Source: Rhodospirillaceae bacterium
Lineage (GTDB): Bacteria > Pseudomonadota > Alphaproteobacteria > MPNO01 > UBA2964
Reading direction: 5' to 3'
Assembly: GCA_002720855.1 (NCBI GenBank)
Contig: PBIN01000015.1
Location: 1 to 64,000 of the forward strand
DNA: 64,000 nucleotides
The stretch's first letter is position 1. The number at the start of each line of letters is the position of its first letter. The notes under the pieces were generated by a model. That model was not told the DNA's origin and searched no databases. It saw only the letters and a list, made by a program, of their open reading frames with translations. Of this stretch, positions 9,448 to 58,219 are shown piece by piece. A program made the translations under genes and the position numbers.

Positions 9448-9469
9448 CAACTTTCTATTGATATAGAGT

Positions 9470-9498
9470 GGGCTGCGGTGACGATGTCATCGCAGCCC
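9470..9498 (+). promoter_or_regulatory. Intercistronic hairpin between dctP and dctQ
   Basis: GGGCTGCGGTGAC (9470-9482) pairs with GTCATCGCAGCCC (9486-9498) around a 3-base loop, with a single G-U wobble in 13 pairs. It is followed by CTCCTTTAGATT, with too few T for a strong terminator. Located 22 bases after the dctP stop and 24 before dctQ, it probably protects the dctP message or partly terminates it, so that the binding protein is made in excess over the permease. Confidence 0.65.
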
Positions 9499-9522
9499 CT
9501 CCTTTAGATTGTCGTTGGTTTA

Positions 9523-10044: not shown

Positions 10045-10047
10045 ATC

Positions 10048-11361: not shown

Positions 11362-11366
11362 AATTA

Positions 11367-14126: not shown

Positions 14127-14233
14127 TAATGTGTCCCCAAGAGCCGCTTTTGCGCAGCCAGGCACACACCTTAAATTGAACCTGTTAAGGCTGGCTTAAC
14201 CATAAACCCCAGCTTGCGGGATCGGTAATTGGA

Positions 14234-15721: not shown

Positions 15722-15810
15722 ATTTCCGTTTTCCTTTAGTCCGGCAATTCATTTTGTGGGTGAGGATATACCGGCTTACCGCAGACGCGACAAGTGCAAG
15801 AGTCGGTCGA

Positions 15811-24059: not shown

Positions 24060-26129
24060 TTGGCTAAATACAGACTAGGTGTCGACGTTGGTGGAACGCA
24101 TACCGATTTAGTACTCACGGACACTCGCACCAATAAAATTCTGATCGAGAAAGTTCATTCGACCCCGGCGAATCCGTCGCTTGGCGTACTCGAAGGGGTG
24201 CAGCGTTTTTTTGCGCGCGGTGTCTCCGCAACCGATATCGACTTTTTCAGCCATGGCACGACGGTAACAACGAACGCACTTCTTGAAATGAAGGGCGCCT
24301 CGATCGGTTTACTTATTACCAAAGGGTTTCGGGCAATTCAGGTCGTGCAAAGCCAGGCCCGCGAGAGCAACCAGTTCGAGTTGAAGTTCCAGCGTCCCTC
24401 CGAGCTCGCCTCACAGCAAATGACGAGAGAAATTACCGGCCGTATTGATTATGCGGGGGAGCAGGTAGAACCCCTCAATGAAGATGACGTGCGACAGGCG
24501 ATTACCGATCTAAAGGCCAAAGGCGCAACCTCTTTTGCTGTTTGCTATGTCTTTTCCTTTATGAACCCGGCTCACGAACAGCGAACCGCTGAGATTGTTC
24601 GCGAGGAAATGCCGGAAGCCTTTATATCTTTATCATCTGAGGTCTTGCCGCGTATCCGTGAATGGCCCCGCATGTCGACAACCATGCTGAATGCCTATCT
24701 TGAACCGGGCCTCGCGCGTTATGCGGATGATTTGGACAAAGGACTTGATACGGCGGGTGTCGCGACGGCGAGGCGTTTCTTGATGCAGTCCAATGGCGGT
24801 GTCATGCCATTGGGGGCCACCGCTGGCGGCGGACGCACAGTACACACCTTGCTGTCGGGTCCTGCCGCAGGCGTGCAAGCGACGGGTTATGTTCTCGGCG
24901 AGCAACAAGGCTGGTCACAGGTTGTTACCATGGATATGGGGGGCACGAGTTGCGACATCGCATTTATCCAGGACAGCAAACCACTTGAAGTTACGGAGGG
25001 GATGATTGCTGAAAGGCGTCTCGATGTTCCCGCATTCGATATCAGCACAATTTCTGCCGGTGGCGGCACCATCGCCCGACTAACAGCTGCCAATTTCATG
25101 AGCGTTGGGCCCGATAGCGCAGGAGCGGATCCCGGTCCGGTTTGTTATGGCCGAGGTGGCGACAGGCCGACAGTTACCGATGCCGATCTCATATGCGGAT
25201 TTCTCAATCCAGAGCACCTTTTGGGTGGCGGGACACCGCTTGATCGCGATGGCGCGGTCAAGGCCGTAGAGGACACTATTGCAAACGCCATGGATCTTTC
25301 AGCGGAAGAAGCAGCGGCCGGGATTATTCGACTTATAAATGCACGCATGGCGGATGAAATTCGGGTTCAAGCGGCGAAAAAAGTTATCGATCTCGCAACA
25401 TTTACGCTTGTACCTTTTGGTGGCGCTGGTCCAGTCCACGCAGCGATGGTTGCTGATGAACTGAACATTCCCCGAATTCTGGTGCCGCCTAATCCGGGCG
25501 CGTTTTCAGCGCTTGGCCTCCTTTGCTCGGATATCGTGCACGACTACATCCGTTCAGATATTCGCGAAATCAATAACCTCGAATCCGCTGACGCAGAAGC
25601 CTATTTCGTTGGATTGGAAGAACAGGCGACAACCGACCTTGCCAATGAGGGGCTCGGTGAAAACGAGCGAGAGTTCATTCGTGATCTTGATCTGCGCTAT
25701 GCGGGTCAAGGATACGAGATCCGTACACCTCTTGAAGGACTAAGCGCCAGCCCAATGACAGCCGATGGTCTCGCACAAGTTCAGGAACGATTTCACGAAC
25801 TCCATCAAACGCTGCATGGCCATTCGGCACGCGATCAGGAAATCGAGGTCGTCAGTTATCGAGTTCGTGTTCGGGTACCTGTAGCCAAACAGGACCTCCC
25901 TGAAACTGCTATTCTCGATGGCGTTACCGAGCCCGTTGGCGAACGAGTCGTCACCTACGATGGCAAAGAAAAATTCAATGCACCGGTCTTTACCCGTGAC
26001 ACCCTGAAATCTTCCGTCATCCAGGGGCCCGCAATTATTGAACAGTTTGATTCAACAACCGTTCTGCCGCCCGGCTGGACAGCCAAACTCGATAAATTCC
26101 GCAACATTGTCGGGGAAAGGAACCGATAG
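24060..26129 (+). CDS. hyuA: Hydantoinase/oxoprolinase A-type subunit
   Basis: A 689-residue subunit of the N-methylhydantoinase/5-oxoprolinase/acetone carboxylase-related family, which couples ATP hydrolysis to amide ring opening. The ATPase fold starts at LGVDVGGTHTDLV and continues with DFFSHGTTVTTNALLE, VVTMDMGGTSCDIAF and FGGAGPVHA. It must start at TTG 24060, because an in-frame TGA lies at 24051-24053 and the family core begins at residue 4. The ribosome site is weak, so expression may be low. It pairs with HyuB one base downstream. Confidence 0.9.
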   Translation: MAKYRLGVDVGGTHTDLVLTDTRTNKILIEKVHSTPANPSLGVLEGVQRFFARGVSATDIDFFSHGTTVTTNALLEMKGASIGLLITKGFRAIQVVQSQARESNQFELKFQRPSELASQQMTREITGRIDYAGEQVEPLNEDDVRQAITDLKAKGATSFAVCYVFSFMNPAHEQRTAEIVREEMPEAFISLSSEVLPRIREWPRMSTTMLNAYLEPGLARYADDLDKGLDTAGVATARRFLMQSNGGVMPLGATAGGGRTVHTLLSGPAAGVQATGYVLGEQQGWSQVVTMDMGGTSCDIAFIQDSKPLEVTEGMIAERRLDVPAFDISTISAGGGTIARLTAANFMSVGPDSAGADPGPVCYGRGGDRPTVTDADLICGFLNPEHLLGGGTPLDRDGAVKAVEDTIANAMDLSAEEAAAGIIRLINARMADEIRVQAAKKVIDLATFTLVPFGGAGPVHAAMVADELNIPRILVPPNPGAFSALGLLCSDIVHDYIRSDIREINNLESADAEAYFVGLEEQATTDLANEGLGENEREFIRDLDLRYAGQGYEIRTPLEGLSASPMTADGLAQVQERFHELHQTLHGHSARDQEIEVVSYRVRVRVPVAKQDLPETAILDGVTEPVGERVVTYDGKEKFNAPVFTRDTLKSSVIQGPAIIEQFDSTTVLPPGWTAKLDKFRNIVGERNR

Positions 26130-26130
26130 G

Positions 26131-27786
26131 ATGGCCGTCGATCCAATCACTGTTGAACTGCTGCGCAATCGCATCGCCAGCCTCATGGAGGAGATGGACT
26201 ATCATTTCTACAGATCGGGATACTCGACAATTGTCCGCGAAAGCCGTGACTTCAGCTGCGTAATTATTGACCCAAATGGCCGCTTGCTTGTTGCACCGTG
26301 GATGTTCTTTCATTCGCCAGTTTATTACCACGTCGTCCGGCGTATCAAAGATATCTACGGGATCGATGATCTTGCCGATGGCGATGTCTTTGTGACCAAT
26401 CATCCCTACGAAGGCAACATGCCACATGCATCCGATATGGGATTTATCTCTCCGATATTTTACGACGGTACCTTGGTCGCCTTTGCAGCAACAATCGCTC
26501 ACAAAGCTGATGTTGGCGGAACCGTGCCGGGCAGCACCTATGGTTCTGCAACGGAGCTTTATCACGAAGGTATGATGCTGCCGCCAATTCGTATTCATCG
26601 CGCGGGCGAACCTGTGGACGATGTCATGCGTCTGATCTCTGCGAACACCCGAGCGCCCTATGTTGTGCTCGGGGATATTTCCGGCCAAATCGGTGTCACA
26701 CGTATCGGCCGAAAACATATGCAGGAAATGTGTGCCCGTTTTGGCGTCGAAACGGTTCTCGATTCAATGGATGCAATGATCGAGGCTTCTGGTGAGGAAT
26801 TTGCCGCCGCCCTCAGGGAGATTCCCGATGGTTTTGCGGAGGCGACAGGTTATCTCGATCACGATGGTGTAGATGAAACCACGAAGGTCAAACTCAACGT
26901 CAAAATTACAATCAAAGACGGCAAACTGCATTTTGACTTCACGGGCTGTGATCCGCAGACACAAGGCCCCGTAAATTTGCGCATCGCAATGGTCGAGGCT
27001 TGCGTCTATTACTGTCTGATCGGGCTGATCGACCCAAACCTCCGCTATAGCGACGGCATCCGCGACCTCGTTACGTTTGAGTTTGCGGAACGCAGCGTGC
27101 TGAGTGCGGAACCGCCGCGTCCCTGTTCGAGCTATATGAAATGCTGTTTAAAGCTTTGTGACGTGATTCTAGAAGCGATGGATCCACTCCTGCCAGGTCG
27201 TGCGATCGCACATTCGGGCGGCAGTGGTGGCTCGATCATTGTCGCATGGAAAGGCGATACACGCCCCAAGCGCGGCAATCAGTACGAGATTTTTGGATCA
27301 GCGTATGGCGCGGGTGCCGGTGCCGATGGTGTTTCCGGCGTCAGCGTTATGCTCGCAAATCTTTTTGCAGCGCCCGTTGAGATTATCGAGGCCGAGTTTC
27401 CGTGCAGGATACGTGAATTCAACTTGAACACGGATTCCGGTGGTGCCGGTGAATTTCGAGGTGGATTAAATTTTGTACGGGAATATGAAATGCTCGAACC
27501 CGCCGAAATAGTCTATCGTGCTGACCGTTCAATCGAGCCGCCTGCTGGGTTGCAGGGCGGCGAGCCAGGTGGCCCCAGCCGCTTTGTCGTAAATCCGGGA
27601 ACGCCTGGTGAGGAAATAATGCCGTCCTCGGCGCGTATGAATTTGCCCGAAGGTACGGTCTTTAGGGTCAACGGACCCGGAGGGGGCGGTTATGGCGATC
27701 CAAAGAAACGCGATCCCGAGGCGTTGGCCAACGATATTGCAGAAGGCTATGTTTCGGAGGAAGCCGCAAACAAGTTTTATAAATAG
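26131..27786 (+). CDS. hyuB: Hydantoinase/oxoprolinase B-type subunit
   Basis: A 551-residue hydantoinase B/oxoprolinase family protein, catalytic partner of HyuA. MAVDPITVELLRNRIASLMEEM is the standard N-terminus. DVFVTNHPYEGNMPHASDM, followed by FAATIAHKADVGG, contains the conserved Asp/His residues thought to bind metal, and RVNGPGGGGYGDP is the typical C-terminal block. The start is ATG 26131 behind GGGGAAAGGAA; the longer in-frame reading overlaps hyuA and lacks similarity. Together HyuA and HyuB would hydrolyse a cyclic imide or hydantoin such as N-methylhydantoin or 5-oxoproline; the exact substrate is open. Confidence 0.92.
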   Translation: MAVDPITVELLRNRIASLMEEMDYHFYRSGYSTIVRESRDFSCVIIDPNGRLLVAPWMFFHSPVYYHVVRRIKDIYGIDDLADGDVFVTNHPYEGNMPHASDMGFISPIFYDGTLVAFAATIAHKADVGGTVPGSTYGSATELYHEGMMLPPIRIHRAGEPVDDVMRLISANTRAPYVVLGDISGQIGVTRIGRKHMQEMCARFGVETVLDSMDAMIEASGEEFAAALREIPDGFAEATGYLDHDGVDETTKVKLNVKITIKDGKLHFDFTGCDPQTQGPVNLRIAMVEACVYYCLIGLIDPNLRYSDGIRDLVTFEFAERSVLSAEPPRPCSSYMKCCLKLCDVILEAMDPLLPGRAIAHSGGSGGSIIVAWKGDTRPKRGNQYEIFGSAYGAGAGADGVSGVSVMLANLFAAPVEIIEAEFPCRIREFNLNTDSGGAGEFRGGLNFVREYEMLEPAEIVYRADRSIEPPAGLQGGEPGGPSRFVVNPGTPGEEIMPSSARMNLPEGTVFRVNGPGGGGYGDPKKRDPEALANDIAEGYVSEEAANKFYK

Positions 27787-28360: not shown

Positions 28361-29626
28361 TTGACTAATCCAATATCAGCGGGCCCTTCAAAAAAGGATC
28401 TCCATTCGGTTTACGCCTTTGGCATATTCAGTATGGCGCTGATCGATATCTTCGTTCTGTTGATCCCGATTTTTGCCAAAGAATCACTGGGGATGTCTGA
28501 TGGTGAGATTGGCACGCTAGTAGGTGCGCGATCCATATTGTCATTATTTTTATCAATTCACGGCGGTGCCCTCATGGACCGATACGGCACCCGCCGTATT
28601 ACCCTGATGTTTACTGGTGCGGTTGTAATCTGCGGCCCCATATTTCCCCTTCTCTCAACCTTTTGGGCGTTGTTGGTCCTACAGGCAATTAGCGGATTTG
28701 CCATTTCACTTGGATGGTCGGGCGCACAAACCCTGATCGCCCGCATCGCCGATGGAGACGCAGAGTATATCGGCCGTTTTAGTACTTTCGCGCGTATCGG
28801 CACCACCATTGCACCCATTTTTGCGGGTCTTCTATTCGACATTGGTGGCGCGTGGCTTGCATACGGATTTGGAACGGTTTGGGCGGCGTGCGCTTTTTAC
28901 GCCTTGTGGCGCACACCAGAACCAAACCCCCGGTCGCGCGTAAAAAACGCTGTCGAAAATCCCAAATTTCGTTTGTCCGATATCATGCCAAAGGTGTCTG
29001 ACTACCGTGCCTCGTTTGCCCTTATGGCAATTCCAGCAGTTGCATTTACGGCAGTGGCCATGCTGGTTCGAAATTCAACATACAACCTTCAAACATCAAT
29101 TTATGTCACTTACTCGTATGACGCAGGACTTACTGCCACAAAAATCGGCCTGTTGTTCGCTGCTATTGAAATGGCTGGCGCGTTCGGTTCCTGGTATTCA
29201 GGCCGCGCTATGCGAAAATTTGATCCCATCAATTTTCTTGTGTTGACCACCTTTGTCACCGTGTCCTTGATCGCCGCGACTCCACTCATCGGGGGTATGG
29301 GAGAAGGCGCATGGGCTATTTTTGGTTGTTTACTAATTGGTCAGGTTATCCGCGGGTATATGCAAGGTGTTTCCCAACCAATATTATTCTCTGTACAGGC
29401 AATCTCTGTGACGAAAGAACAGCAAGGAATTGTCGTCGGTTTACGGCAGACGATGAACCGGTTTGGCGGCATCGTCATCCCACCCATCGCAGGGTTCACG
29501 TCAGATTTCTACGGACGCGAAGAAAGTTTCTACATTGTTGGCGGCGGATTGCTGTTTATTCTCTTGTGTTTAGCGGTATACGGCCATTTCGTTCCAAGAA
29601 TTGCGACACCGAGTAAATCGGATTAG
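28361..29626 (+). CDS. MFS transporter
   Basis: A 421-residue major facilitator with 12 predicted helices. The loop after helix 2 reads GGALMDRYGTRR, the MFS motif A, and a second-half equivalent lies around YSGRAMRKFDP. The only start near the first helix is TTG 28361, so the start is provisional. The 28164-28360 gap upstream holds no gene. It probably takes up the substrate of the FAH-family hydrolase operon that follows 85 bases downstream, but substrate class cannot be told from sequence. Confidence 0.85.
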   Translation: MTNPISAGPSKKDLHSVYAFGIFSMALIDIFVLLIPIFAKESLGMSDGEIGTLVGARSILSLFLSIHGGALMDRYGTRRITLMFTGAVVICGPIFPLLSTFWALLVLQAISGFAISLGWSGAQTLIARIADGDAEYIGRFSTFARIGTTIAPIFAGLLFDIGGAWLAYGFGTVWAACAFYALWRTPEPNPRSRVKNAVENPKFRLSDIMPKVSDYRASFALMAIPAVAFTAVAMLVRNSTYNLQTSIYVTYSYDAGLTATKIGLLFAAIEMAGAFGSWYSGRAMRKFDPINFLVLTTFVTVSLIAATPLIGGMGEGAWAIFGCLLIGQVIRGYMQGVSQPILFSVQAISVTKEQQGIVVGLRQTMNRFGGIVIPPIAGFTSDFYGREESFYIVGGGLLFILLCLAVYGHFVPRIATPSKSD

Positions 29627-40519: not shown

Positions 40520-42127
40520 ATGGTGCAACAGCCTAATTTCCTCATGTTCATTACCGATCAACATCGGGCAGATCATTTGGGCTGTTATGGCAACACGATT
40601 GTGCAAACACCCAATATTGACGGCATCGCTGCAAAAGGAACCAAGTTCGATAAATTTTATGTCGCTTGCCCCATTTGTATGCCAAACCGCGCGACACTTA
40701 TGACGGGTCGGATGCCGTCACTCCATGGTGTACGCCAAAACGGCATTCCCCTGCCCCTGACATCGACGACATTTACACAGGTGTTGCGCGCTGCAGGATA
40801 TCACACAGCGTTGTTCGGCAAGAGCCACCTCCAATGTATTTCGGCAAATGCGATTGAGGTAGGTTTGCCCGTCCCCGATCCAAATAAAACACAGCCTCCT
40901 GGTGAATTGTCAGAGGCGACAAGAGAGATGTGGTTGGACGGCGATTATGAACAGGAACTGCCGCCGACATGGAAAGAAGATCCAAACTTTGAACCAGCGA
41001 TTCCTTTTTATGGGTTTGACGAACTGGCCCTCGCCATCGGACATAGCGATAGAGTAACTGGACATTATTCACGCTGGCTTGCGGAACGGCATCCAGATCC
41101 TGATTCATTGCGTGGACCTGATAACGCCATACAGTCCAATCGTGAAATCAAGGCACCGCAGGCATGGCGGACGTCAATCCCTGAAGAGCTATACCCGACA
41201 ACGTTCGTTGCAGATCAAACAGTCGAATTTCTGAAAAGGCATGCCTCGTCGGGTGAAGAAAAGCCATTCTTTGCGCAATGTTCTTTCCCAGATCCCCATC
41301 ACCCCTTTACGCCGCCAGGCAAATATTTTGACATGTATGATCCAGCGGATGTCCCTACGCCGGAGGCATTCTTTCACCCGCCAGAAAAACTTCCGCGTAA
41401 TGTTGCCGCTCTCCATGCAGAACGCGACAAGGGAGAAGCCAACAAGTCGGGGCAACGCGGCTTCGGTTGTACGGAAGAAGAAGCCCGCGAAGCGATTGCC
41501 CTAAACTATGGCTCGATCACCATGATCGATGACGCCATCGGTCGCGTCCTCACCGCACTTGAAGAGAGCGGTCAGGCCCAAAATACCGTAGTCGTCTTTA
41601 CAACTGATCATGGGGATTTTATGGGGGACCATCAGCTTCTCCTAAAAGCGGCGATCCACTATCAGGGGCTAATCCGTGTCCCTTGTATTTGGTCAGATCC
41701 CAACTCAAGCATTGGATCGAATACCTCCAATGCTTTTACAGGCACCCTGGATTTAGCGAGTTCCTTTCTCGATCGAGCGGGAGTTGAGGGTTATAACGGC
41801 ATGCAAGGGTTGAGCCTCGGACAGATTGCTGAAGGCGCTGAGGGACATGACTCAATGGTGATCGAAGAGAGCCAGCGCCGTGGATATATGGGGTTTGAAC
41901 CCAATTTTCGAGCCAGAACGTTGGTCGCCGAGCAATGGCGCCTAACGCTTTATTCGGACACGGATTGGGGAGAGTTATACAATCTGGAAAACGACCCCAA
42001 CGAGTTTGAAAATCTTTGGGATGATCCGGGACACAACAAAATCCGTACAGACCTTTTAGAGAGACTGGCACGGCGCATGATGGACCTTGCTGATTCCAGC
42101 CCACTTTCGACCGGGCATGGTCCTTAA
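40520..42127 (+). CDS. Type I sulfatase (arylsulfatase/choline-sulfatase-like), cytosolic
   Basis: A 535-residue sulfatase of the alkaline phosphatase superfamily. FMFITDQHRADHLGCYG-type start (FLMFITDQHRADH) carries the N-terminal metal Asp. The formylglycine site is CMPNR at Cys53-Arg57 (C-x-P-x-R), followed by ATLMTGRMPS. Further metal ligands lie in VVFTTDHGDFMGDH. Aerobic formylglycine-generating enzyme must come from elsewhere. There is no signal peptide, so it acts on an imported sulfate or phosphonate ester. The enzyme at 47190 is a close paralogue with the same motif positions. The stop is 6 bases from the convergent SDR gene. Confidence 0.9.
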   Translation: MVQQPNFLMFITDQHRADHLGCYGNTIVQTPNIDGIAAKGTKFDKFYVACPICMPNRATLMTGRMPSLHGVRQNGIPLPLTSTTFTQVLRAAGYHTALFGKSHLQCISANAIEVGLPVPDPNKTQPPGELSEATREMWLDGDYEQELPPTWKEDPNFEPAIPFYGFDELALAIGHSDRVTGHYSRWLAERHPDPDSLRGPDNAIQSNREIKAPQAWRTSIPEELYPTTFVADQTVEFLKRHASSGEEKPFFAQCSFPDPHHPFTPPGKYFDMYDPADVPTPEAFFHPPEKLPRNVAALHAERDKGEANKSGQRGFGCTEEEAREAIALNYGSITMIDDAIGRVLTALEESGQAQNTVVVFTTDHGDFMGDHQLLLKAAIHYQGLIRVPCIWSDPNSSIGSNTSNAFTGTLDLASSFLDRAGVEGYNGMQGLSLGQIAEGAEGHDSMVIEESQRRGYMGFEPNFRARTLVAEQWRLTLYSDTDWGELYNLENDPNEFENLWDDPGHNKIRTDLLERLARRMMDLADSSPLSTGHGP

Positions 42128-47043: not shown

Positions 47044-47189
47044 TTGAAGTCTCCCATTCTCATATGTTTGTTTTGTGCCGATACAATACAGGAAAATAAG
47101 GTGAGAGAAATAGCGGTGACAGATTTGGCGGTCAGCGAACGATAAGGTATGAAGAGTTCCAGATTTAAAAGATCAAGTCTTTGTTCAGA

Positions 47190-48794
47190 ATGACCACGCG
47201 GCCAAACTTCGTCCTCATAATAACCGATCAGCATCGTGCCGATTATCTTGGCTGTGCCGGACATCCAGTGCTCAAAACACCACACATCGACTCAATTGCG
47301 GAGTCCGGTGTCCAGTTCAACCGGTTCTATGTTTCCAACCCGGTTTGTATGCCCAATCGGGCAACATTGATGACCGGGCGAACACCTTCGGCACATGGCG
47401 TGAGACAGAACGGAATACCATTACCGCTTTCGTCTAATACATTTGTCGAAATGCTTAGGGTGGCCGGATATAAAACAGCACTGGTCGGTAAGAGCCATTT
47501 GCAGAATTTCACGACCTTCCCGCCGCTAAACCCTGATAGTGATCCGCCGGAGGGATACGCACCACCTCCCGACGCGCTAAAAGAGGCACAAAAAGGTGCC
47601 TTTATGGACGGAAATTATAAACAGGAACGTCCTGATTTTTGGGATACACCCGACGCCAAATTGGAATTGCCCTTTTATGGCTATGAACATGTAGATCTAT
47701 GTTTTGGCCATGGAGATGAATGCGGCGGTGACTATTACTGGTGGCTCAAACAACATCGGGAAGATGCCGATGATTTGATCGGTCCCAAAAATGGAATGGC
47801 ACACGATTATTCCGTCCGGCAGGCATGGCGGACGAAAGTACCCGAAGAACTTTATCCAACAAGATGGATCGCCGATTACGCTGAAAAATATCTAAACGAT
47901 CACGCCAAATCGGGTACAGACGCGCCATTCTATATGGTTGCCTCATTTCCCGATCCGCATCACCCCTTCACACCGCCAGGAAAATATTGGGATCAATACA
48001 AACCGGAACAGATGGAGATACCCGAAGCCTACAACGTCAACGATTGGCAGCCGCCACCACATGTTAAGGCGCTGCTTGACCGGCGCGATGAGGGTCTGCC
48101 ACCCGAGGACGGAATCATGTCATATGGCATCAATGCGCAAGAGGCATTGGAAGCACGCGCACTTACCTGCGGCATGATCTCAATGGTCGATGATGGTGTC
48201 GGAAAGATTCTGGCGGCACTCAAGGCCAATGGGTTGGATAAGAACACCGTTGTAATGTTCACCAGCGATCATGGTGATCATCTCGGCGATCACTGCATGC
48301 TTCGCAAAGGCCCGGCGCATTACCGGGAACTGGTTCGTGTCGCCTTCCTGTGGTCTGACCCTGAAAGCGATGTGGCGGGTGCCGAAACGGAGGCAATTTC
48401 GGGGACTATGGATATCTCCGCAACGATACTCGATCGAGCCAAGGTTGCGCCCTATAACGGCCTACAAGGCAAGAGCATGCTTGAGGTTGTTGCTGACCCA
48501 TCGTCGGACGGTCCGCGTGATGCTTTTTTGATTGAAGAAGACAACCAGCGTGTCTTGCCAGTGCTTGGCAAAGACCCAAAAGCGCGAACGCTGATCACGA
48601 AAGATTGGCGCCTGTCCGTCTATCACGGTCATGACTGGGGCGAACTTTACGATCTGGAAAACGATCCGGGAGAGCTTGTCAATCTATGGGACAGTGATGA
48701 TCATCGCGATATAAAAATGACCTTAATGAAACGGCTCGTGCAGGAACAAATCTCATTAAATGACACATCGCCCCTACCCTTGGGGCGTGCTTAA
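47190..48794 (+). CDS. Type I sulfatase, second paralogue, cytosolic
   Basis: A 534-residue sulfatase paralogous to the one at 40520: the N-terminal NFVLIITDQHRADYLGC, formylglycine motif CMPNR at Cys53, ATLMTGRTPS and the FTSDHGDHLGDH metal block are all shared, as is the tail GELYDLENDPGELVNLWD. No signal peptide is seen. Start chosen at ATG 47190, three codons inside the longer TTG frame. It is divergent from the amidohydrolase and followed at 12 bases by the DUF924 gene. Substrate unknown; a small organic sulfate is likely for this cytosolic subgroup. Confidence 0.9.
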   Translation: MTTRPNFVLIITDQHRADYLGCAGHPVLKTPHIDSIAESGVQFNRFYVSNPVCMPNRATLMTGRTPSAHGVRQNGIPLPLSSNTFVEMLRVAGYKTALVGKSHLQNFTTFPPLNPDSDPPEGYAPPPDALKEAQKGAFMDGNYKQERPDFWDTPDAKLELPFYGYEHVDLCFGHGDECGGDYYWWLKQHREDADDLIGPKNGMAHDYSVRQAWRTKVPEELYPTRWIADYAEKYLNDHAKSGTDAPFYMVASFPDPHHPFTPPGKYWDQYKPEQMEIPEAYNVNDWQPPPHVKALLDRRDEGLPPEDGIMSYGINAQEALEARALTCGMISMVDDGVGKILAALKANGLDKNTVVMFTSDHGDHLGDHCMLRKGPAHYRELVRVAFLWSDPESDVAGAETEAISGTMDISATILDRAKVAPYNGLQGKSMLEVVADPSSDGPRDAFLIEEDNQRVLPVLGKDPKARTLITKDWRLSVYHGHDWGELYDLENDPGELVNLWDSDDHRDIKMTLMKRLVQEQISLNDTSPLPLGRA

Positions 48795-49463: not shown

Positions 49464-50684
49464 CTACCGTTCTATGTTTGCGCCGCGCTCGGGAACGCCG
49501 AATTCGCGATGACAAATTTCTGCGAGCTTGGTCACACCGTCGCGAATTTCCTCGATAGTCGGGTTACCAAAACACAACCGCATTTTGTGCGTGCCGGTTT
49601 TGGGGTCGGCGACCCATTCTGCACCTGGATTAATCGCGACACCTTCAGAGCTGGCCACCTCGAAAAGCTTCATGGTGTCGACGTTGTCCGGCAGTGTGAC
49701 CCAGACAAATATTCCACCCGCCGGGTTGGAAACCTCTGCTGCCGTCCCGAACTCTGCTGACAGAGTTTCCAGCATAACGTCGCATTTCTCTTTCAGCACA
49801 CCGCGCAAGTTTGAGACGTGATCTTCAAAATGAGCCGGGCAATATTCACCCAAAACCATCTGTTCCAATGCCCCCGAGCCACCATCGCGTTTTACAGCCG
49901 ACATCCGTGAAAGCATATCCCATTCAGCGACGAGATAGCCGACCCTCAAAGCAGGTGCGATTGTTTTTGAGAATGTCCCGCAAAAGACGACACGACCGTC
50001 ACTATCAAGTGCACGGATTGCCCGGGGACGTTCACCGTCAAAAGTCAGATCCGCATAACAGTCGTCTTCAAAGATTGGCACATCGAAATCACGCGCTAAC
50101 TTTAAAATCTCGAGCCGCCTTTCCTCGGGCATCACGGTGCCAGTTGGGTTCTGCACTGTTGGCACAACATAAATGTATTTTGGCCTGACCCCGTCCTTTT
50201 TCAAATCGTCGAGAATATTGCTCAGCCCATCCGCCCGGATTCCGCCGTCATCCAGTGGTGCGCCCATGCCTCTTACGCCCAGCCGATTGAAACGTTGGAT
50301 AGCGCCCTGATAGGCAGCTTCCTCCAAAATGACGGTATCACCTTCCGCGAGAAGCACGTCATTGACGAGATCAAGCGCCTGCAGCGATCCCGAGACCAAC
50401 AGAATGTCGTCGGCGGTCTGCTGCATGCCTGTCGATTTATTCAGATAACCCGCCAAAAACTCGCGGAGGGGGCGATAACCCTGCGCCCCGCTCTCCAAGC
50501 TATAGGTCGCAAGTGTACTTCCTTCCCGCTTCAGAACGCTCTCGGCCGCATCAATAAAGTCCTGTACGGGGACCGCTGCACCATCGTTGTGACCTCCGAC
50601 GAAATTATATTTGGGAAATCCCGACCAACGCTTCGCGGGCGGCGGAAGTCCGGGACGAAATACGGTTGAATAATCGAAGGCCAT
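49464..50684 (-). CDS. PLP-dependent aminotransferase, class I/II
   Basis: A 406-residue fold-type I aminotransferase. The cofactor lysine is in GTFSKTIAPALRVGY, the Asp in FEDDCYADL, and the substrate arginine region in MRLCFGNPT. YIYVVPTVQNPTGTVMPEERR and GGIFVWVTLP also fit the 2-aminoadipate aminotransferase/MocR-type branch, which often acts on aromatic or aliphatic alpha-amino acids. No DNA-binding domain is attached. It sits next to the NMT1-like binding protein, 45 bases upstream on the same strand, and may belong to the same catabolic block. Confidence 0.87.
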   Translation of the reverse strand: MAFDYSTVFRPGLPPPAKRWSGFPKYNFVGGHNDGAAVPVQDFIDAAESVLKREGSTLATYSLESGAQGYRPLREFLAGYLNKSTGMQQTADDILLVSGSLQALDLVNDVLLAEGDTVILEEAAYQGAIQRFNRLGVRGMGAPLDDGGIRADGLSNILDDLKKDGVRPKYIYVVPTVQNPTGTVMPEERRLEILKLARDFDVPIFEDDCYADLTFDGERPRAIRALDSDGRVVFCGTFSKTIAPALRVGYLVAEWDMLSRMSAVKRDGGSGALEQMVLGEYCPAHFEDHVSNLRGVLKEKCDVMLETLSAEFGTAAEVSNPAGGIFVWVTLPDNVDTMKLFEVASSEGVAINPGAEWVADPKTGTHKMRLCFGNPTIEEIRDGVTKLAEICHREFGVPERGANIER

Positions 50685-50729
50685 GACCCGCTCCTAAATT
50701 ATTAGACTGGGCCGAATTGTACCGCCTTC

Positions 50730-51662
50730 CTAGCGTCCCGATATAGCCTCTTCATAAAAGCTTAAATCGAGGTATTTTTCCGTATCGGTCAGCTGTTTGC
50801 CCTGAGGGGCATATTGACTGCGGATTTCAAGAACGGTCTTCAACCCTTCCATATCCACTTTGCCCATTGGAACAAGGCCTGTTTCAGGTACCAGCAATTT
50901 CTCGAGTGCAGGACCAACCGCCTTTTCGGGCATTTGCGGCATATTGGCACCGAGAATCGTTGCTGCCTCTGCCTTGTTTGCGGGATCAAGCGTCCAGTCG
51001 AGCGCATCCAGATAGCCCTGAATAAAGGAGATCATCGCAGGACGGTTTTCGTTGGCCCAGCCTCGCATTGCACCAAACATTTGCCCGGGATAATTTTTGA
51101 AGGTCTGGAGACTGCTTTCAAGAATGGTGTACCCGCCGGCGCGCGCCTGGCCGGTAAACGGCTCAATCAGCAATGTCCCTGCATGTTCTCCCTCTTGTAC
51201 GGCTTCCCACCGATGGGGGGTGGCGCCAACCGACACCATTTCATAATCGTCTGGTGTAAGACCGGCATTGTCGAGCATTCTGTAAAGCACGAAGGCAAAA
51301 CCCGTCGTCAATGCATCCATTGCAAGTGTTTTGCCCTTTAAATCCTCAAAGCTCTCGATTCCTTTGGCGACCACAAAAGAAAGTTCTATCTGTGTCGAAC
51401 CCATGAAGACGAATAGATCAGGTTCGCGATCAAGTTCTACCTCACCTGCGCCCTCCTGATAGGCGATATAATTGTCTACCGCACTACAGGCGATATCAAA
51501 TTCGCCGCCAACAAGCTTCTGTGCCTGATACATGGAGCTTGGCGTTCGTTCGAGATCGACGGTTACGCCACGCTCCTTGAACTGCCCCTTATCAATGCCG
51601 ACAAAAAGGGGTAACAGTCCGGTCCCCGGAAAGCCAATTAACCTGATATTCGACGTCGCCAT
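50730..51662 (-). CDS. NMT1/SsuA-like substrate-binding protein without signal peptide
   Basis: A 310-residue NitT/TauT-type binding protein fold: IRLIGFPGTGLLPLFVGIDKGQFKERGV, then EFDIACSAVDN and FEDLKGKTLAMDALTTGFAF. Family members usually have a signal peptide, but this one opens straight into the first strand after four residues; GGGAG before ATG 51662 makes a missed upstream start unlikely. No ABC permease or ATPase is nearby. It may be a cytosolic ligand-binding or THI5-like protein. It sits 12 bases after the molybdopterin hydroxylase gene, so they are likely co-transcribed. Confidence 0.78.
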   Translation of the reverse strand: MATSNIRLIGFPGTGLLPLFVGIDKGQFKERGVTVDLERTPSSMYQAQKLVGGEFDIACSAVDNYIAYQEGAGEVELDREPDLFVFMGSTQIELSFVVAKGIESFEDLKGKTLAMDALTTGFAFVLYRMLDNAGLTPDDYEMVSVGATPHRWEAVQEGEHAGTLLIEPFTGQARAGGYTILESSLQTFKNYPGQMFGAMRGWANENRPAMISFIQGYLDALDWTLDPANKAEAATILGANMPQMPEKAVGPALEKLLVPETGLVPMGKVDMEGLKTVLEIRSQYAPQGKQLTDTEKYLDLSFYEEAISGR

Positions 51663-51674
51663 TCCTTTGCTCCC

Positions 51675-54020
51675 TTATGCTTTGTTTCCGCTCTGCATCG
51701 CCTGCCAGATTTTGAGCGGCGTCAGAGGCATCTTAATGTGTTCGACACCATAATCCTGGAGTGCATTTACCACCGCATTTGTTATCACCGCCGGCGCGGG
51801 GGTCGTGCCGCCCTCACCACCCGCTTTTACACCCAACGGGTTGGTTGGCGAAGGAACCTCATTCAACGCTGTTTCGAAGTGCGGAAAATGATCCGCACGA
51901 GGCATGCCGTAATCCATAAAAGACCCACAAAGCGGTTGCCCGTCAGAATCAAACACGCATTCTTCCCACATCGCCTGTCCAACACCCTGGACAATTCCGC
52001 CATGCGTCTGACCATCGACAATTAGAGGATTGATCGCGCGCCCCACGTCATCTACGGCGGCATAACGGACAATCTGCGGTGCACCGGTTTCCTCATCGAT
52101 TTCAATTTCGCAAATATGACAACCATTGGGGAAAACGGGGGTATGCATTTCGTTGTCTTCAATTACTGAAAGCCCGTCAGAGAGATCTTCGGGTAAATCT
52201 ATCGCGGCAGACTCAGCACCCAATTCCATCAGGCTTAGCCGCCGATCCGTCCCTTTGACAAGGAACACCCCGTCCTGAAATTCAATATCCTCTAACGACG
52301 CTTCAAAAACATGCTCTGCAATGCGCTTGCCTTTTTCAATCATCGCTTCTGAAGCTTTGACAATAACCGTCCCCGCCATCCGCATTGACCTGCCCGAATG
52401 CGATCCGCCGCCAACTTTAACAATATCTGTATCGCCAACGATCACATTGACCTGTTCAACGGGAAGGCCCAGAAACTCGGCGGCAACTTGAGCAAAGCTC
52501 GTTTCATGCCCTTGCCCGCTTGGCTGGGTGCCAATCACCAGATCGAGCCGGTCTTCATCTACACGTACATGCAGTTCGGCCTGTTCGACCGGTGTCCCGA
52601 TAGAACTTTCGACATAGTGGGCAACACCGCGTCCGAGAATCTTGCCGCGTGATTTGGCTTCTGATTTGCGCGCGGCAAAACCGTCCCAATCGTTGAGATC
52701 GATCACCATATCGAGACTTTTTTCGTACTTTCCGCTGTCATAATTCATGCCGACCGCATTGGTGTAGGGCATCTCGTCGTCACGGACCAAATTTTTGCGG
52801 CGCAACTCGATTGGATCGAAACCGAGGGTTCGCGCGGTTTTTTCAACCATGCATTCAACGCAATAAATAATTTCAGGCCGGCCGGAGCTTCGATAGGCGT
52901 TGGTTGGCGGTGTGTTGGAGAATGTGGCCCGCGATCGCAAGTGTGCCAACGGAATACGATAGGATCCCGTGATAATGCCGGAGCCTTTTGACAGCGGTGA
53001 TAAGGAAACACATTTCGCGCCGACATTACTTATATTTGAGGAGCGCAGCGCGCGAAACGTACCATCGTCATCCAGCGCGAGTTCCATATCAACAATAAGA
53101 TCACGTCCCTGATAGTCGCTAACGAATGCTTCAGAGCGTTCAACTGTTAGCTTTACCGGTCGTCCAACTTTCCTTGACGCCCAGGCCACCAAGGGAAACT
53201 CGACAAACAGCCGGTTGCGAGTTCCAAAATTGCCGCCAACATCCAACGCATAGACACGCACCTGATTGTTTTCAACACCGAGCACGGCGGCAATCTCACG
53301 TTTTTGCCGAACAGTGCCTCCACTACCGGCATAAACCGTATATTTGTCCTGATCCGGATCATAAATACCGAGCGCAGATCGGGGCTCCATGGGAACGCCC
53401 GTGACTCTTGGAATATCGAAAGACATTTCGACGACATGATCTGCTTTGGCAAATGCTTCGTCTGTCGCGTCCTTGTCACCGAAATAGGTTTCGACAAACA
53501 CATTGTCTGGGATCTCTGCGTAAAGCTGTGGCGCATCCGCAGCTGCGGCTGCGCGTGTATGGGTAACGGCTGGCAGTATCTCATAATCGATTTCCACCGC
53601 TTCTGCCGCCTCTGCGGCCTGTGCTTTGGTTTCCGCAACGACCATTGCTACACCCTCACCGACATAGCGCCCTTTATCTGTGGGAATTACGGTGTTGATG
53701 CCTGCGAAACTACCGTCACCGACCTTGCCACCAGGTCCATGTAACTTCATATCAAATTGCGTCGATGGAAACGGGCTATGCGGAATTTGGCCAAGACCAT
53801 CAGCTTCACAGTCGGCCCCTGTAAAAACGCCCAATACGCCCGGCATGGCCGACGCTGCGCTGGTGTCAATTTGTTTTAACCTGGCATGTGCGAACGGGCA
53901 GCGGACCATCACCGCCCAACATTGGTTGGGTAGGCTGTGATCGTCGCTAAACTCCCCGTTTCCTGTAAGCAGCCGGTGATCTTCTTTGCGGCGAACCGGC
54001 TGGCCTATCGCACCATCCAT
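51675..54020 (-). CDS. Xanthine dehydrogenase family molybdopterin-binding subunit
   Basis: A 781-residue molybdenum-binding large subunit of the xanthine dehydrogenase/aldehyde oxidase/CO dehydrogenase family. The active-site loop AYRSSGR is of form II type (AYRGAGR-like), not the VAYRCSFR of true CO dehydrogenase. GGSHSGRSMRMAG binds the cofactor, and the base glutamate is in GVKAGGEGGTTPAPAV. It hydroxylates a heterocycle or aldehyde. The FAD and [2Fe-2S] subunits that normally complete the enzyme are missing here. Start set at ATG 54020 behind GGAGGTGGAG. Adjacent genes suggest an N-heterocyclic substrate. Confidence 0.88.
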   Translation of the reverse strand: MDGAIGQPVRRKEDHRLLTGNGEFSDDHSLPNQCWAVMVRCPFAHARLKQIDTSAASAMPGVLGVFTGADCEADGLGQIPHSPFPSTQFDMKLHGPGGKVGDGSFAGINTVIPTDKGRYVGEGVAMVVAETKAQAAEAAEAVEIDYEILPAVTHTRAAAAADAPQLYAEIPDNVFVETYFGDKDATDEAFAKADHVVEMSFDIPRVTGVPMEPRSALGIYDPDQDKYTVYAGSGGTVRQKREIAAVLGVENNQVRVYALDVGGNFGTRNRLFVEFPLVAWASRKVGRPVKLTVERSEAFVSDYQGRDLIVDMELALDDDGTFRALRSSNISNVGAKCVSLSPLSKGSGIITGSYRIPLAHLRSRATFSNTPPTNAYRSSGRPEIIYCVECMVEKTARTLGFDPIELRRKNLVRDDEMPYTNAVGMNYDSGKYEKSLDMVIDLNDWDGFAARKSEAKSRGKILGRGVAHYVESSIGTPVEQAELHVRVDEDRLDLVIGTQPSGQGHETSFAQVAAEFLGLPVEQVNVIVGDTDIVKVGGGSHSGRSMRMAGTVIVKASEAMIEKGKRIAEHVFEASLEDIEFQDGVFLVKGTDRRLSLMELGAESAAIDLPEDLSDGLSVIEDNEMHTPVFPNGCHICEIEIDEETGAPQIVRYAAVDDVGRAINPLIVDGQTHGGIVQGVGQAMWEECVFDSDGQPLCGSFMDYGMPRADHFPHFETALNEVPSPTNPLGVKAGGEGGTTPAPAVITNAVVNALQDYGVEHIKMPLTPLKIWQAMQSGNKA

Positions 54021-54111
54021 CTCAATTCTCCACCTCCATACGGTAGCGTATGGTTTTCCCCTTTCATGCCTTATCCATCCCAAGGGGTCAACGGAAGAAA
54101 CCGCCTAGATT

Positions 54112-55176
54112 TTAAGCCCCCAACTGATCCGCAAGCCAGTCGGCAGTCTGCGGCCTAACCTTGTAGGGGCGGTTATGACAGACATGATTTCCATCTTCGA
54201 CAATCGATACAACTTTTGGACCTGAAACCTCAGCCGCCAGCTGGTTCGCCGCTTCGACGGCCGTAATCCGGTCCAGCCCGCCCGCAATAATATAAATCGG
54301 GCAGGTTATATTTTTTGCACACTCCTTCAAGGTGAGTGTTTTGCCATTTTCATGGGCTTCTTCAAGTGTCGTTGCGTGCGACCGGATTCGAAAAACTTCC
54401 TTATTAAGCTCAGACTTCTGATCCCAGTTCTCGGCCCAGTCAAAAGCTCCGGAAATCGCAACGCAGGCCTTGATACGTTTTTCAAATGAAGCTGCTCTCG
54501 GCGCATGATAACCACCGAGACTGACCCCAAACATGCCAATTCGTGTAGCGTCCAGGTCTTCGCGGGTTTCAATCCAGTCGATAATTGCTGCTGCTACAGT
54601 TTCGTAATCTCCCCGAATTGGTAGATCATATTCAGCTTCCCCCTGCCCCGGCCCATCAATGGGCAGCGTGGCCATGCCACGGGCCAGAAAAGCCGGCGCG
54701 TAGCCGTAAATCTCCTCTTTTGTCGCCTCAAGCCCCGGCACCATGATCACCACCGGTGCCTTTTTGATGCCCGCAGGTTTCCGCAAATTTCCAAACAGCT
54801 CGTGACCTTCGAACGGAATGGCTACGCGTTCGCCCGGTGGCTTCATGTGCGGCAAGGCAAGCCGATGGCATTCAACAGCCTTGGCATGGGTCGCCCTCAT
54901 TTCTTCGGGAAACTGAACTGCCATAAATTTTGCAAAATGATAGATCAGGGCCGCCGTTGTCAGATGATCCGCCGCACTCTGCCCTTTTCCGGCATCAAGT
55001 GCCTCGCGGCCCATTGCTTCATGAATTTCGGCCCGTGCCGACCAGCGGGGCAACCAGTCCTCCCAATTGACCAAACCGTCAGTCGCTTCCTGAAAGTCGG
55101 CGAGCGGAACACCGCTGGTTATAAAGCGGGGTGTAAAGTTGCTTATGACGGTATCGATTTGCGGTGCACGAGCCAT
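54112..55176 (-). CDS. Alpha/beta hydrolase, 2,6-dihydropseudooxynicotine hydrolase-like
   Basis: A 354-residue C-C hydrolase-type alpha/beta protein with a helical N-terminal lid domain (residues 1-115) and core after it. The triad is Ser219 in FGVSLGGYHAPRAA, Asp in IAGGLDRITAVEAAN and His in DGNHVCHN; PVVIMVPGLEATKEE is the oxyanion loop. The arrangement fits 2,6-dihydropseudooxynicotine hydrolase, which cuts a C-C bond in bacterial nicotine breakdown. Start at ATG 55176, preferred to 55197. It is divergent from the enamidase-like gene and upstream of the Mo-hydroxylase. Confidence 0.82.
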   Translation of the reverse strand: MARAPQIDTVISNFTPRFITSGVPLADFQEATDGLVNWEDWLPRWSARAEIHEAMGREALDAGKGQSAADHLTTAALIYHFAKFMAVQFPEEMRATHAKAVECHRLALPHMKPPGERVAIPFEGHELFGNLRKPAGIKKAPVVIMVPGLEATKEEIYGYAPAFLARGMATLPIDGPGQGEAEYDLPIRGDYETVAAAIIDWIETREDLDATRIGMFGVSLGGYHAPRAASFEKRIKACVAISGAFDWAENWDQKSELNKEVFRIRSHATTLEEAHENGKTLTLKECAKNITCPIYIIAGGLDRITAVEAANQLAAEVSGPKVVSIVEDGNHVCHNRPYKVRPQTADWLADQLGA

Positions 55177-55292
55177 ATTGCTTTCCCTGAAACGCAATGC
55201 CTTATTGGGTCAAAAGATGCCGTGCCGCCCGCCCCCTGACAAGGGCTGAGCCATAGGATACGCTTTCCATACATAGTCAAACGAGGCGGCAC

Positions 55293-56483
55293 GTGACCAG
55301 TACATTAATTACGAACATCGGTGAGTTTTTTACGGGTGATTTAGAGACCCCCATTGCCGATGTTTCATCCGTTTTTATCGAAGATGGCCGCATAAAATCT
55401 TTTGACCCGGAGGCCGGAACGGAAGCAGACCAATCAATTGATGCCGAGGGTTGCGCAGTGCTGCCGGGTCTCGTGGATGGGCATATTCATCCGGTGTTCG
55501 GCGAGTGGACTCCGGCACAAAACACAATTGGCTGGATAACCAACTATATGCATGGCGGTAGCACGACAATGATTTCCGCCGGCGAACTTCATACGCCGGG
55601 TCTCGATTACGACGATCTTACGGCAGACCTCGTAACCTCCCTCGCCGAAGTTGCGAGAGCGACAACCGGTCGCATTCGCTGGGGCGGGGTAAAAGTCCAC
55701 GCCGGCACCTGCTTGTTGGTACCCGGCATGGATGAATCTCATTTCGACCGGCTCGCCGAAGCGGGATCCATACTCGTCAAGTTCATCTTTTTTCCCCTTG
55801 AGGAGAATAAAGACGAGGCGATCCGCTATTCCGAAATGGCCCGCGAACGCGGTTTGCGGACCAAGGTGCACACTGGCGGTGTTTCCCGATCAGGATCAAG
55901 CAGGGTATGTGGATTTGATACTTTGAAATGGCTGCAACCCGATATTGCTGCTCATGTGTCGGGCGGCCCAATCCCGATGTCCGATGATGACATCGATGCT
56001 CTCGTAGATAATACGGAGTTCGCGCTGGAAGTCTGCTCTTCGAACAATTATCGCTCAACCTATCTACTAGCAAATCGCTTGATGAAGATGGGTCGACTGG
56101 ATCGCATGACGATGGGGACGGACACGCCGGGTGGTACTGGTGTTATCCCACGGGGTATGCTCCGCAACATCCTGTTTCTTTCCTCGATCTGTGAAATGAG
56201 TCCGGGAGAAGCTATTGCCGTCGCAACTGGCAATACAGCCAAAGCCCATGGGCTCGAGGTCGGAATCTTAAAAGAAGACGCACCTGCAGATCTCGTAATT
56301 GCAGGTCCAGTCAAAGGGTCTGAGGGAACGACGTTATCGGACGCGATAGCGCACGGCGACCTGCCAGGAATCTCCTTCGTTTTGATTGATGGCGAAGTCA
56401 TTGTCGAAACACGAAGCGAGCAAACACCACCGCCGATGCAAATCGCTCATTTCTTGGACAGTCCTGGCTGTCCGTTCTGTTGA
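55293..56483 (+). CDS. Enamidase-like amidohydrolase
   Basis: A 396-residue amidohydrolase whose best-fitting family is enamidase of anaerobic nicotinate degradation, which opens 1,4,5,6-tetrahydro-6-oxonicotinate and deaminates it to 2-formylglutarate. NIGEFFTGD opens the protein, metal sites are LVDGHIHPVFG, then KVHTGG, HVSGGP and TMGTDTPGGTGVIP, and GDLPGISFVLIDGE closes it. Start is GTG 55293 with an AGGCGG site. The C-terminus ends in cysteines (CPFC). It is followed at 20 bases by the class II aldolase, so likely one transcript. Confidence 0.82.
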   Translation: MTSTLITNIGEFFTGDLETPIADVSSVFIEDGRIKSFDPEAGTEADQSIDAEGCAVLPGLVDGHIHPVFGEWTPAQNTIGWITNYMHGGSTTMISAGELHTPGLDYDDLTADLVTSLAEVARATTGRIRWGGVKVHAGTCLLVPGMDESHFDRLAEAGSILVKFIFFPLEENKDEAIRYSEMARERGLRTKVHTGGVSRSGSSRVCGFDTLKWLQPDIAAHVSGGPIPMSDDDIDALVDNTEFALEVCSSNNYRSTYLLANRLMKMGRLDRMTMGTDTPGGTGVIPRGMLRNILFLSSICEMSPGEAIAVATGNTAKAHGLEVGILKEDAPADLVIAGPVKGSEGTTLSDAIAHGDLPGISFVLIDGEVIVETRSEQTPPPMQIAHFLDSPGCPFC

Positions 56484-56502
56484 GTTTAGGGAGGAATTCG
56501 TC

Positions 56503-57222
56503 ATGGAAGATATCACCGGCCTTATTCGCGAATTGGTTATCGCCAACCGCATCCTCGCTCGTGAAGGGGTGGTAGATGCGTTCGGTCATATCAGTGTTCG
56601 CAACCCAAAAAACCCGGAGAGCTATTTTATTTCGGTGTCGCGGGCTCCCGAACTCATCACGATGGATGATATCGTTGAATTTCGCCTCGATGGCGAACCG
56701 ATCGGCGATCTCCGAGACCGTACCCCCTATGGTGAAAGAGCTATTCATGGCGGAATTTACGAGGTGCGACCGGAAGTAAACTCCGTCGTCCATAATCATT
56801 CCCAAGAAGTAATCCCCTTCGCCGCCACCAATACGCTTATCAGACCGCTCCTTCATATGAGTGCTCCGATGGGTGCGCATGTACCGATATGGGATATCCG
56901 CGAGAAATTTGGTGAAACCAACCATTTGGTCGTGACGATGGAACAAGGCCGTGATCTTGCTTCAGCACTTGGTGAAAATGCCGCTGCGCTTATGAAACGG
57001 CACGGCTGCGTCTGTGCCCGTCGAAATATTCGTGAAGTAGTAATGACGGCAGTTTACCTCCAAGCAACTGCCAAAATGCTGATGCAAGCCAAATTACTGG
57101 GTGGCGAAATTGACTATCTCACGCCCAACGAGGTTGACCTCTGCAACGTTAATCAACTCGGCCCGCTAGGGTTGGACCGAGCATGGGAATACTGGGTTAT
57201 GCGGTCCGGTTACGCGGACTAA
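56503..57222 (+). CDS. Class II aldolase/adducin family protein
   Basis: A 239-residue zinc-dependent class II aldolase-fold protein. The general-acid glutamate lies in TPYGERAIHGGIYE, the histidine pair in NSVVHNHSQEVIPF and the third ligand in LMKRHGCVCAR. AFGHISVRNP is the conserved N-terminal glycine region. The family includes fuculose-phosphate aldolase, ribulose-phosphate epimerase and aromatic decarboxylases; the context favours C-C cleavage or decarboxylation of a ring-opening product. Start at ATG 56503 with GGGAGGAA. Its stop overlaps the stop of the convergent TauD-like gene by four bases. Confidence 0.87.
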   Translation: MEDITGLIRELVIANRILAREGVVDAFGHISVRNPKNPESYFISVSRAPELITMDDIVEFRLDGEPIGDLRDRTPYGERAIHGGIYEVRPEVNSVVHNHSQEVIPFAATNTLIRPLLHMSAPMGAHVPIWDIREKFGETNHLVVTMEQGRDLASALGENAAALMKRHGCVCARRNIREVVMTAVYLQATAKMLMQAKLLGGEIDYLTPNEVDLCNVNQLGPLGLDRAWEYWVMRSGYAD

Positions 57223-58127
57223 GATAACTTTAGGCGCAAATATTCTGCTTCGTTTATGGGCCGTCCATCAACGACGGTTGGTCCGTCTCCAACGAGAGTT
57301 GTCCGCCGCATTATCCGCGGTTCGTTCTCATCCCAGGGTCGGCCGCGATGCATTACCCGGCGGTTATCCCACATGACCAGATCCCCAACCGACCATTTAT
57401 GACAATAGACGAATTGCGGCTGCGTCGTGAATTCGAGTAACTCTTCAAGAAATTTCACTCCGGTTTCAGGGTCTTCGCCATAGACTTCACCTGCGTGCGA
57501 TCCCAGATAAAGATTCTTGCGGCCTTTCGGGTCATGAGTGCGGACGACCGATTGTGGAACGGGTTTCAAACTCTCCTGTTCCTCTGGAGTAAAGGTCTTA
57601 AAGCCGGTTTTGATCCGTGATGTCATCAGGCTGTGTCCGGCAACCATTCCTTCTGCGCGATTTTTGCGTTCTTCATCTAACGCATCCCACCCTCCGCGTT
57701 CGTCGGCGAATTCGGTTTCGCCGTCCTTACTGGCAACCGTCTCCGCGTAGAGAAACGAATATTTGGAAGGAATGGCGCGAAACGACGCGTCTGAATGCCA
57801 CAATTGATTGGCACGATTATATTTCGCTCGTTCGCTGTTGGGCGCAAGTAACTCGCCATCCGCACCAAGGTTTGACGCATCGGCAAATTCGGCACGGAGC
57901 CGCCGTTTTCTACCCTTTTGATAGGTCACCTCCAGCTCGCCGAACTGGCGGCTAAACGCCATATGTTGCTCTTCGTTCAGAGTTTGCCCGGGAAATAGCA
58001 ACACGCCGTGATCGTCAATCGCGTCAACAATGCTGCGAACGTCTTCGCGGGGTGTCGGTTCTCGCGCATCGATACCTTTGACGACAGCGAAGAAAGTCTG
58101 ACCTAACTGTTCAACTTGGATTGGCAT
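57219..58127 (-). CDS. TauD/TfdA family Fe(II)/2-oxoglutarate dioxygenase
   Basis: A 302-residue 2-oxoglutarate-dependent dioxygenase. The iron triad is His111-Asp113 in NQLWHSDASF and the distal His in RRVMHRGRPW, and the 2-oxoglutarate arginine is in PRIMRRTTLVGDGPT. The family includes TauD (taurine), TfdA (2,4-D) and alkylsulfatase; the TfdA-type VFYFPGQ-like region is LLFPGQTLNEEQHMAFSRQFG. Substrate is unknown. It converges with the aldolase gene, the CTAA overlap holding both stops. Confidence 0.87.
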   Translation of the reverse strand: MPIQVEQLGQTFFAVVKGIDAREPTPREDVRSIVDAIDDHGVLLFPGQTLNEEQHMAFSRQFGELEVTYQKGRKRRLRAEFADASNLGADGELLAPNSERAKYNRANQLWHSDASFRAIPSKYSFLYAETVASKDGETEFADERGGWDALDEERKNRAEGMVAGHSLMTSRIKTGFKTFTPEEQESLKPVPQSVVRTHDPKGRKNLYLGSHAGEVYGEDPETGVKFLEELLEFTTQPQFVYCHKWSVGDLVMWDNRRVMHRGRPWDENEPRIMRRTTLVGDGPTVVDGRPINEAEYLRLKLS

Positions 58128-58219
58128 AACCGGCTCAATGGTTTTTCTGCCCTAACTATACCAAAATTTTTATGCAACGCCTCTTTTCCCGAAGCATCAC
58201 AACTGGCGAAGTGACTTAG

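Follow-up and report, generated by a model that had tools for sequence, protein, structure and literature searches.

The window analysed here is a 64,000-nucleotide stretch of contig C15 (PBIN01000015.1) in genome G000, from a Rhodospirillaceae bacterium; other G numbers denote comparison genomes. At positions 49464-58127 it carries a cassette that includes a gene for CoxL, the large subunit of a molybdenum (Mo) hydroxylase, and a possible source of the partner subunits for this CoxL is the main subject here. Enamidase-like, Mo-hydroxylase, C-C hydrolase, class II aldolase, TauD and NMT1-like genes had been recognised together in this segment in a first-pass annotation, and their positions and families were confirmed. 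An aminotransferase gene that was left unnamed also belongs to the cassette. On the minus strand, the C-C hydrolase, CoxL, solute-binding protein (SBP) and aminotransferase genes lie head to tail, separated by 28, 12 and 45 bp, and this is an operon-like layout. The enamidase homologue and the class II aldolase-fold gene run in the opposite direction from a 95 bp gap (55198-55292, from the open reading frame (ORF) coordinates), which presumably holds the promoter region, and the TauD gene is convergent with them.

The coxL gene (51675-54083, minus strand; likely start 54020) predicts a protein with MoCoBD_1/2 and Ald_Xan_dh_C domains that includes the motif AYRSSGR and retains the catalytic Glu (KAGGEGGT). 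Its best solved match is the CoxL in 8uem (E 1.8e-143). The earlier assignment to the xanthine dehydrogenase family stands, but only the large subunit is encoded, and no gene for a 2Fe-2S or FAD subunit is present among the cassette genes. The coxS-coxL-coxM order of form II operons is not found, the nearest coxS in the genome being ∼46 kb away. The large subunits of 6-hydroxypseudooxynicotine dehydrogenase (7dqx) and quinoline 2-oxidoreductase (1t3q) belong to the same family and share the catalytic Glu. However, these enzymes are multi-subunit complexes, whereas the cassette coxL gene stands alone and its product groups with form II CoxL.

The SBP gene (50730-51662, minus strand) predicts an NMT1/SsuA-type fold (PF13379, E 9.5e-22). 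The family assignment was correct, but there is no signal peptide; the open frame spans just 314 codons and begins with the domain's first strand. A transport role, as in ABC-transporter solute-binding proteins, was rejected for this reason, and no ABC permease gene is found among the cassette genes. The AlphaFold2 model (pLDDT 94) has 3qsl, TauA, Cmp/Nrt domains and Thi5 as top Foldseek matches and is a plain ligand-binding fold. A DszB- or Thi5-type enzyme was also considered and rejected, as the fold is common to both but no invariant Cys or His is present. The last gene of the minus-strand operon (49464-50684) predicts a PLP fold-type I aminotransferase (AAT; PF00155, E 1.7e-30) with best PDB matches to 1x0m/3aov (E ∼1e-68), and orthologues sharing 77-88% identity adjoin the SBP gene in G010, G011, G013, G016 and G017.

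The alpha/beta hydrolase gene (54112-55197, minus strand) predicts a relative of the 2,6-dihydroxypseudooxynicotine C-C hydrolase 2jbw (E 3.2e-49), with AntI as the second match. The nucleophile Ser, the acid Asp, the His and the Glu of a GLE motif align with those of 2jbw, which correspond to S217, D300, H329 and E148, mapped with an offset of 14. These residues are not diagnostic because they are at least partly common to AntI-type relatives, and the match to 2jbw is distant. On the other strand, the enamidase-family amidohydrolase (55293-56483) is homologous over its whole length to Eubacterium barkeri enamidase 2vun (E 1.7e-77, residues 1-386), though only 38% identical. The HxH, K, H, H and D positions, which provide metal ligands in this superfamily, align with 2vun and are retained. 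The possibility that the cassette amidohydrolase may instead be a ring-cleaving dioxygenase was noted in view of KpiC, which has that activity and is 28% identical to enamidase (PMC7356986).

The class II aldolase-fold gene is listed as an ORF starting at 56386 but the real start is near 56503, as orthologues match the whole protein from this point (56503-57222, plus strand). The fold had been correctly predicted (PF00596, E 2.7e-27), but the best solved relative is a decarboxylase, the 3-hydroxy-2-methylpyridine-4,5-dicarboxylate decarboxylase Mlr6791 of the class II aldolase superfamily (2z7b, E 1.2e-52), with which it shares the HxH and RHG metal-binding motifs. Other genes for vitamin B6 degradation are not seen beside it. 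It also resembles 3,4-dihydroxyphthalate decarboxylase, with a match below the cut-off, and its probable function is metal-dependent decarboxylation of (hetero)aromatic carboxylates. The final gene (57219-58127, minus strand) predicts a TauD/TfdA-type 2-oxoglutarate/Fe(II) dioxygenase (PF02668, E 7.5e-55), with the 2,4-D-type dioxygenase 5bke as best solved match (E 1.2e-76), and the WHSD and MHRGRPW motifs in the translation supply the HxD...H metal triad. Comparison with G013, G017, G015, G016 and G011 places at 58128-58219 the site of a second orphan coxL gene, coxL2, which is missing here.

Neighbourhoods in relatives were read by tblastn, because simple gene calling yielded shadow ORFs in the GC-rich comparison loci. 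The cassette set recurs in five congeners (G013, G017, G015, G011 and G016) at about 75-94% protein identity, bearing out the expectation that these genes would co-occur in other genomes. The cassette contigs of G015 and G011 are cut, and frameshifts are present in G016. In G013, G017, G015 and G016, coxL2 (product ∼42% identical to the first CoxL) lies beside the TauD gene; G011 has no TauD gene and its coxL2 adjoins the decarboxylase gene. The cassette in G010 consists of coxL2 and the decarboxylase, hydrolase, CoxL, SBP and aminotransferase genes, with neither enamidase nor TauD. Other genera of the family (G007, G008, G009 and G018) retain only the SBP-CoxL pair, accompanied once (G008) by the hydrolase gene, and the pair is also found in G138 from another family. 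All cassette genes are under purifying selection, with dN of 0.05-0.11 and saturated or very high dS against G013. The conserved gene order and the low dN with high or saturated dS argue that the cassette is not a chance arrangement. Enamidase relatives of 60-79% identity occur in other Alpha- and Betaproteobacteria, among them orthologues from further genera and families of the same order, and of 49-58% in Actinobacteria and Chloroflexi. As these lie in other settings and the gene is missing from the G010 cassette, the co-location is a genus-level feature, and the enamidase appears to be a recent partner outside the conserved core.

The predicted functions of the surrounding genes indicate that the setting is catabolic. 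Genes for an FAA hydrolase, a quinone-oxidoreductase-like alcohol dehydrogenase (ADH) and an arylmalonate-decarboxylase relative (Amdase) flank the cassette in G010 and G011, and in G011 the neighbours also include genes for a VOC extradiol dioxygenase, a second C-C hydrolase and a further amidohydrolase. In G000, all of these except Amdase are at C15:72.9-80 kb, about 15 kb beyond the cassette. Within the segment C15:64001-84000 (local positions 8923-15968), the FAA hydrolase, ADH, second DHPON-hydrolase-like protein, VOC extradiol dioxygenase and amidohydrolase genes are homologous (78-89%) to those flanking the cassette in G011. Two sulfatase genes are also located near the cassette in the window (40520-42127 and 47181-48794), and the second is syntenic in congeners.

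The lack of local partners is not confined to the cassette CoxL. A CoxL was considered paired if CoxS was encoded within 5 kb, and otherwise was counted as an orphan. G000 has 35 MoCoBD_1 hits (34 full genes and one weak split match) versus 12 CoxS and 11 CoxM, and 23 of the 35, the cassette CoxL included, are orphans. Orphans make up 27 of 41 CoxL in G017, which is a single contig, 27 of 40 in G013, 16 of 22 in G007 and 18 of 36 in G024. The cassette CoxL, 14 further orphans from G000 and the CoxL2 of G013 group together in a clade of 16 (support 100/98) that has no paired member. Eight more CoxL from other genomes, which are SBP- or enamidase-linked or of the CoxL2 type, fall within it. The catalytic Glu is retained in all aligned orphans, and their motifs vary.

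G000 includes one CoxS-CoxM pair without a CoxL, at C7:137.2-138.6 kb, inside a coxG-S-M-D-E-xdhC-mobA operon at C7:131-139.3 kb (L203, 2495-10849) that is followed by an MFS transporter gene. This operon is referred to below as the hub. Only 60 bp separate coxS from coxM, with no coxL between. The CoxL-less operon is syntenic in G017, G013, G007 and G024, which belong to the same order of uncultured Alphaproteobacteria as G000 and have the same arrangement of genes, and the MFS gene is found in two of these four. Hub-type CoxM was detected in 184 of the 385 alphaproteobacterial genomes sampled, and a piece of CoxL lies within short flanks at 23 of the 30 best hub-type loci. Among 12 hub loci that were fetched whole, coxL is located between coxS and coxM in seven (G322, G148, G054, G092, G222, G207 and G192) and ahead of coxG in G138 and G240; in G065 it is located separately, beyond xdhC and mobA, and G185 and G055 have none. 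AYRGAGR, the signature of form II CoxL (PMC8235418, PMC13203968), was found in all eight hub-adjacent CoxL for which the motif was read. In the tree, the 16 orphans cluster with 18 hub-adjacent CoxL in a clade (SH-aLRT 99) that excludes the paired CoxL of G000 itself. The nearest relatives from outside the orphan group are encoded within form II coxG-S-L-M-D-E-xdhC-mobA operons. The closest known system is the form II Mo-dependent carbon monoxide dehydrogenase (coxSLM), with the same large-subunit clade and the same coxG-S-M-D-E-xdhC-mobA order, but here the operon has no coxL, related large subunits are scattered as orphans, and the cassette CoxL has AYRSSGR in place of AYRGAGR. In G192 and G288 the form II operon has an additional coxL gene immediately behind coxM, and the one from G288 clusters with the orphan clade.

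It is proposed that the lack of local partners for the cassette CoxL reflects its membership of a clade, related to form II CoxL, that uses the subunits of a separate operon. The hub on C7 would supply both the 2Fe-2S and FAD subunits (CoxS and CoxM) and the maturation factors CoxG, CoxD, CoxE, XdhC and MobA. With regard to the cassette, the chances appear evenly balanced that it is functional, fixed in the chromosome and devoted to the aerobic catabolism of a cyclic substrate, with its CoxL served in trans by the CoxL-less form II operon. An equal weight is given to the broader proposal that the form II operon of this order lost its own large subunit and became a shared redox and maturation hub, with at least some sixteen scattered large subunits docking in trans on one CoxS-CoxM pair. 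These would be interchangeable and substrate-specific. Gene order and trees would be accounted for most economically if copies of the form II coxL gene had proliferated and dispersed, leaving coxS, coxM and the maturation genes in place as a common hub.

In the cassette pathway, the Mo enzyme would hydroxylate or dehydrogenate the substrate, and the DHPON-hydrolase-like enzyme would cut a C-C bond of a beta-diketone-like intermediate in a retro-Claisen type of reaction. The class II aldolase-fold enzyme would decarboxylate, the dioxygenase may catalyze C-H hydroxylation or ether or amine cleavage, and the aminotransferase would handle an amino or keto acid product. The enamidase homologue, as a recent addition, may act in a side branch by opening a cyclic (en)amide. 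Several points weigh against these proposals. The order of the steps is guesswork, and the genomes are mostly metagenome-assembled. CoxL-less form II operons also occur in a different family (G185 and G055). Furthermore, eight orphans of G000 fall outside the clade, and therefore would have other partners or none.

The alternative that orphan CoxL are decaying duplicates or assembly artefacts has very little to recommend it. Frameshifted copies do occur in some relatives, such as G016, but 27 orphans are present in the single-contig G017, the cassette CoxL is 93% identical with saturated dS, and the catalytic Glu has been kept in every aligned orphan. It is also unlikely, though less so, that an orphan CoxL acts alone or with the cytosolic SBP as its partner in place of CoxS and CoxM. 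The SBP gene directly adjoins an orphan-clade coxL in G007, G008, G009 and G018 of this family, as well as in G138. However, the SBP has no conserved Cys or His and a plain ligand-binding fold, many orphan coxL loci show no SBP, and CoxL related to the orphans are ordinary subunits of CoxSLM.

The nature of the substrate leaves two options, heterocyclic or carbocyclic, of roughly equal standing. A single ring-opening route for a pyridine or other N-heterocycle, with Mo hydroxylation, C-C hydrolysis, decarboxylation and enamide hydrolysis as its steps, is possible but rather doubtful. Among relatives of known structure, those with pyridines or reduced pyridine products as substrates (2vun, 2jbw, 2z7b and 7dqx) rank as best or near-best matches, and the genes are adjacent in five congeners. 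However, each match is at superfamily distance, the conserved residues are catalytic and not substrate-specific, and the CoxL finds its best solved match in a CoxL. The first-pass annotation had pointed to enamidase in anaerobic nicotinate fermentation and to the C-C hydrolase in aerobic nicotine breakdown. A nicotinate or nicotine route is not supported here, and enamidase is not confined to anaerobes. In the THON nicotinate route, which is reported in aerobic Azorhizobium and Bradyrhizobiaceae, enamidase is encoded beside 6-hydroxynicotinate reductase (PMC3511419). Here the enamidase has other partners, and the reductase is not among the families found at 42-63 kb, the rest of the genome not having been searched. 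A pathway of the nicotinate fermentation type was rejected as the default because the reductase was not seen nearby and enamidase is outside the core. The nicotine pathway was also rejected, as none of its known genes was seen among the neighbours in the families found at 42-63 kb. The homologies, catalytic residues and catabolic setting agree with the wider suggestion of ring opening, and a pyridine-type substrate is possible. Homarine, a marine pyridine compound, is a lead only, as the literature searched yielded no paper describing genes for its degradation.

A carbocyclic aromatic substrate (phthalate-, hydroxyphenylacetate- or phenylpropanoid-like) is about as tentative a prospect. Its breakdown would include extradiol cleavage and draw on the genes described above for an extradiol dioxygenase, an FAA hydrolase and a second C-C hydrolase. 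This agrees with the presence of FAA hydrolase and ADH genes next to the cassette in both G010 and G011, of VOC dioxygenase and second C-C hydrolase genes in the latter, and of all these genes but Amdase in G000, as well as with the resemblance of the cassette decarboxylase to 3,4-dihydroxyphthalate decarboxylase. However, ∼15 kb separates those genes from the cassette in G000, and the enamidase would have no obvious role.

For the hub proposal, nothing on point regarding shared or orphan Mo-hydroxylase subunits was found in the openly (CC-) licensed literature searched. If true, it would give a testable role to form II cox, the function of which is described as unclear or uncertain (PMC13203968, PMC8235418), and these genes may serve as a general oxidation platform for numerous organic compounds. 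The number of CoxL could then not be read as the number of independent enzyme complexes, and an operon that looks 'incomplete' would not necessarily result from an assembly gap, the explanation assumed for form I operons in PMC13240472. The cassette itself is a defined enzyme set that is open to testing.

Enamidase paralogues (37-39% identical) adjoin orphan-clade coxL genes at three further loci, L050 (C2:185-204.5 kb in G000), L051 and L059. All three also carry AA_synth (PF06684) and isochorismatase-family genes, with TctA transporter genes in L050 and L051, and they represent a second recurrent arrangement of enamidase and orphan CoxL. Elsewhere in the window, hydantoinase/oxoprolinase A and B genes (24060-27786) are preceded by an amidase gene (22214-23593) and followed by an MFS transporter gene (28361-29626), possibly another cluster for cyclic-amide breakdown.

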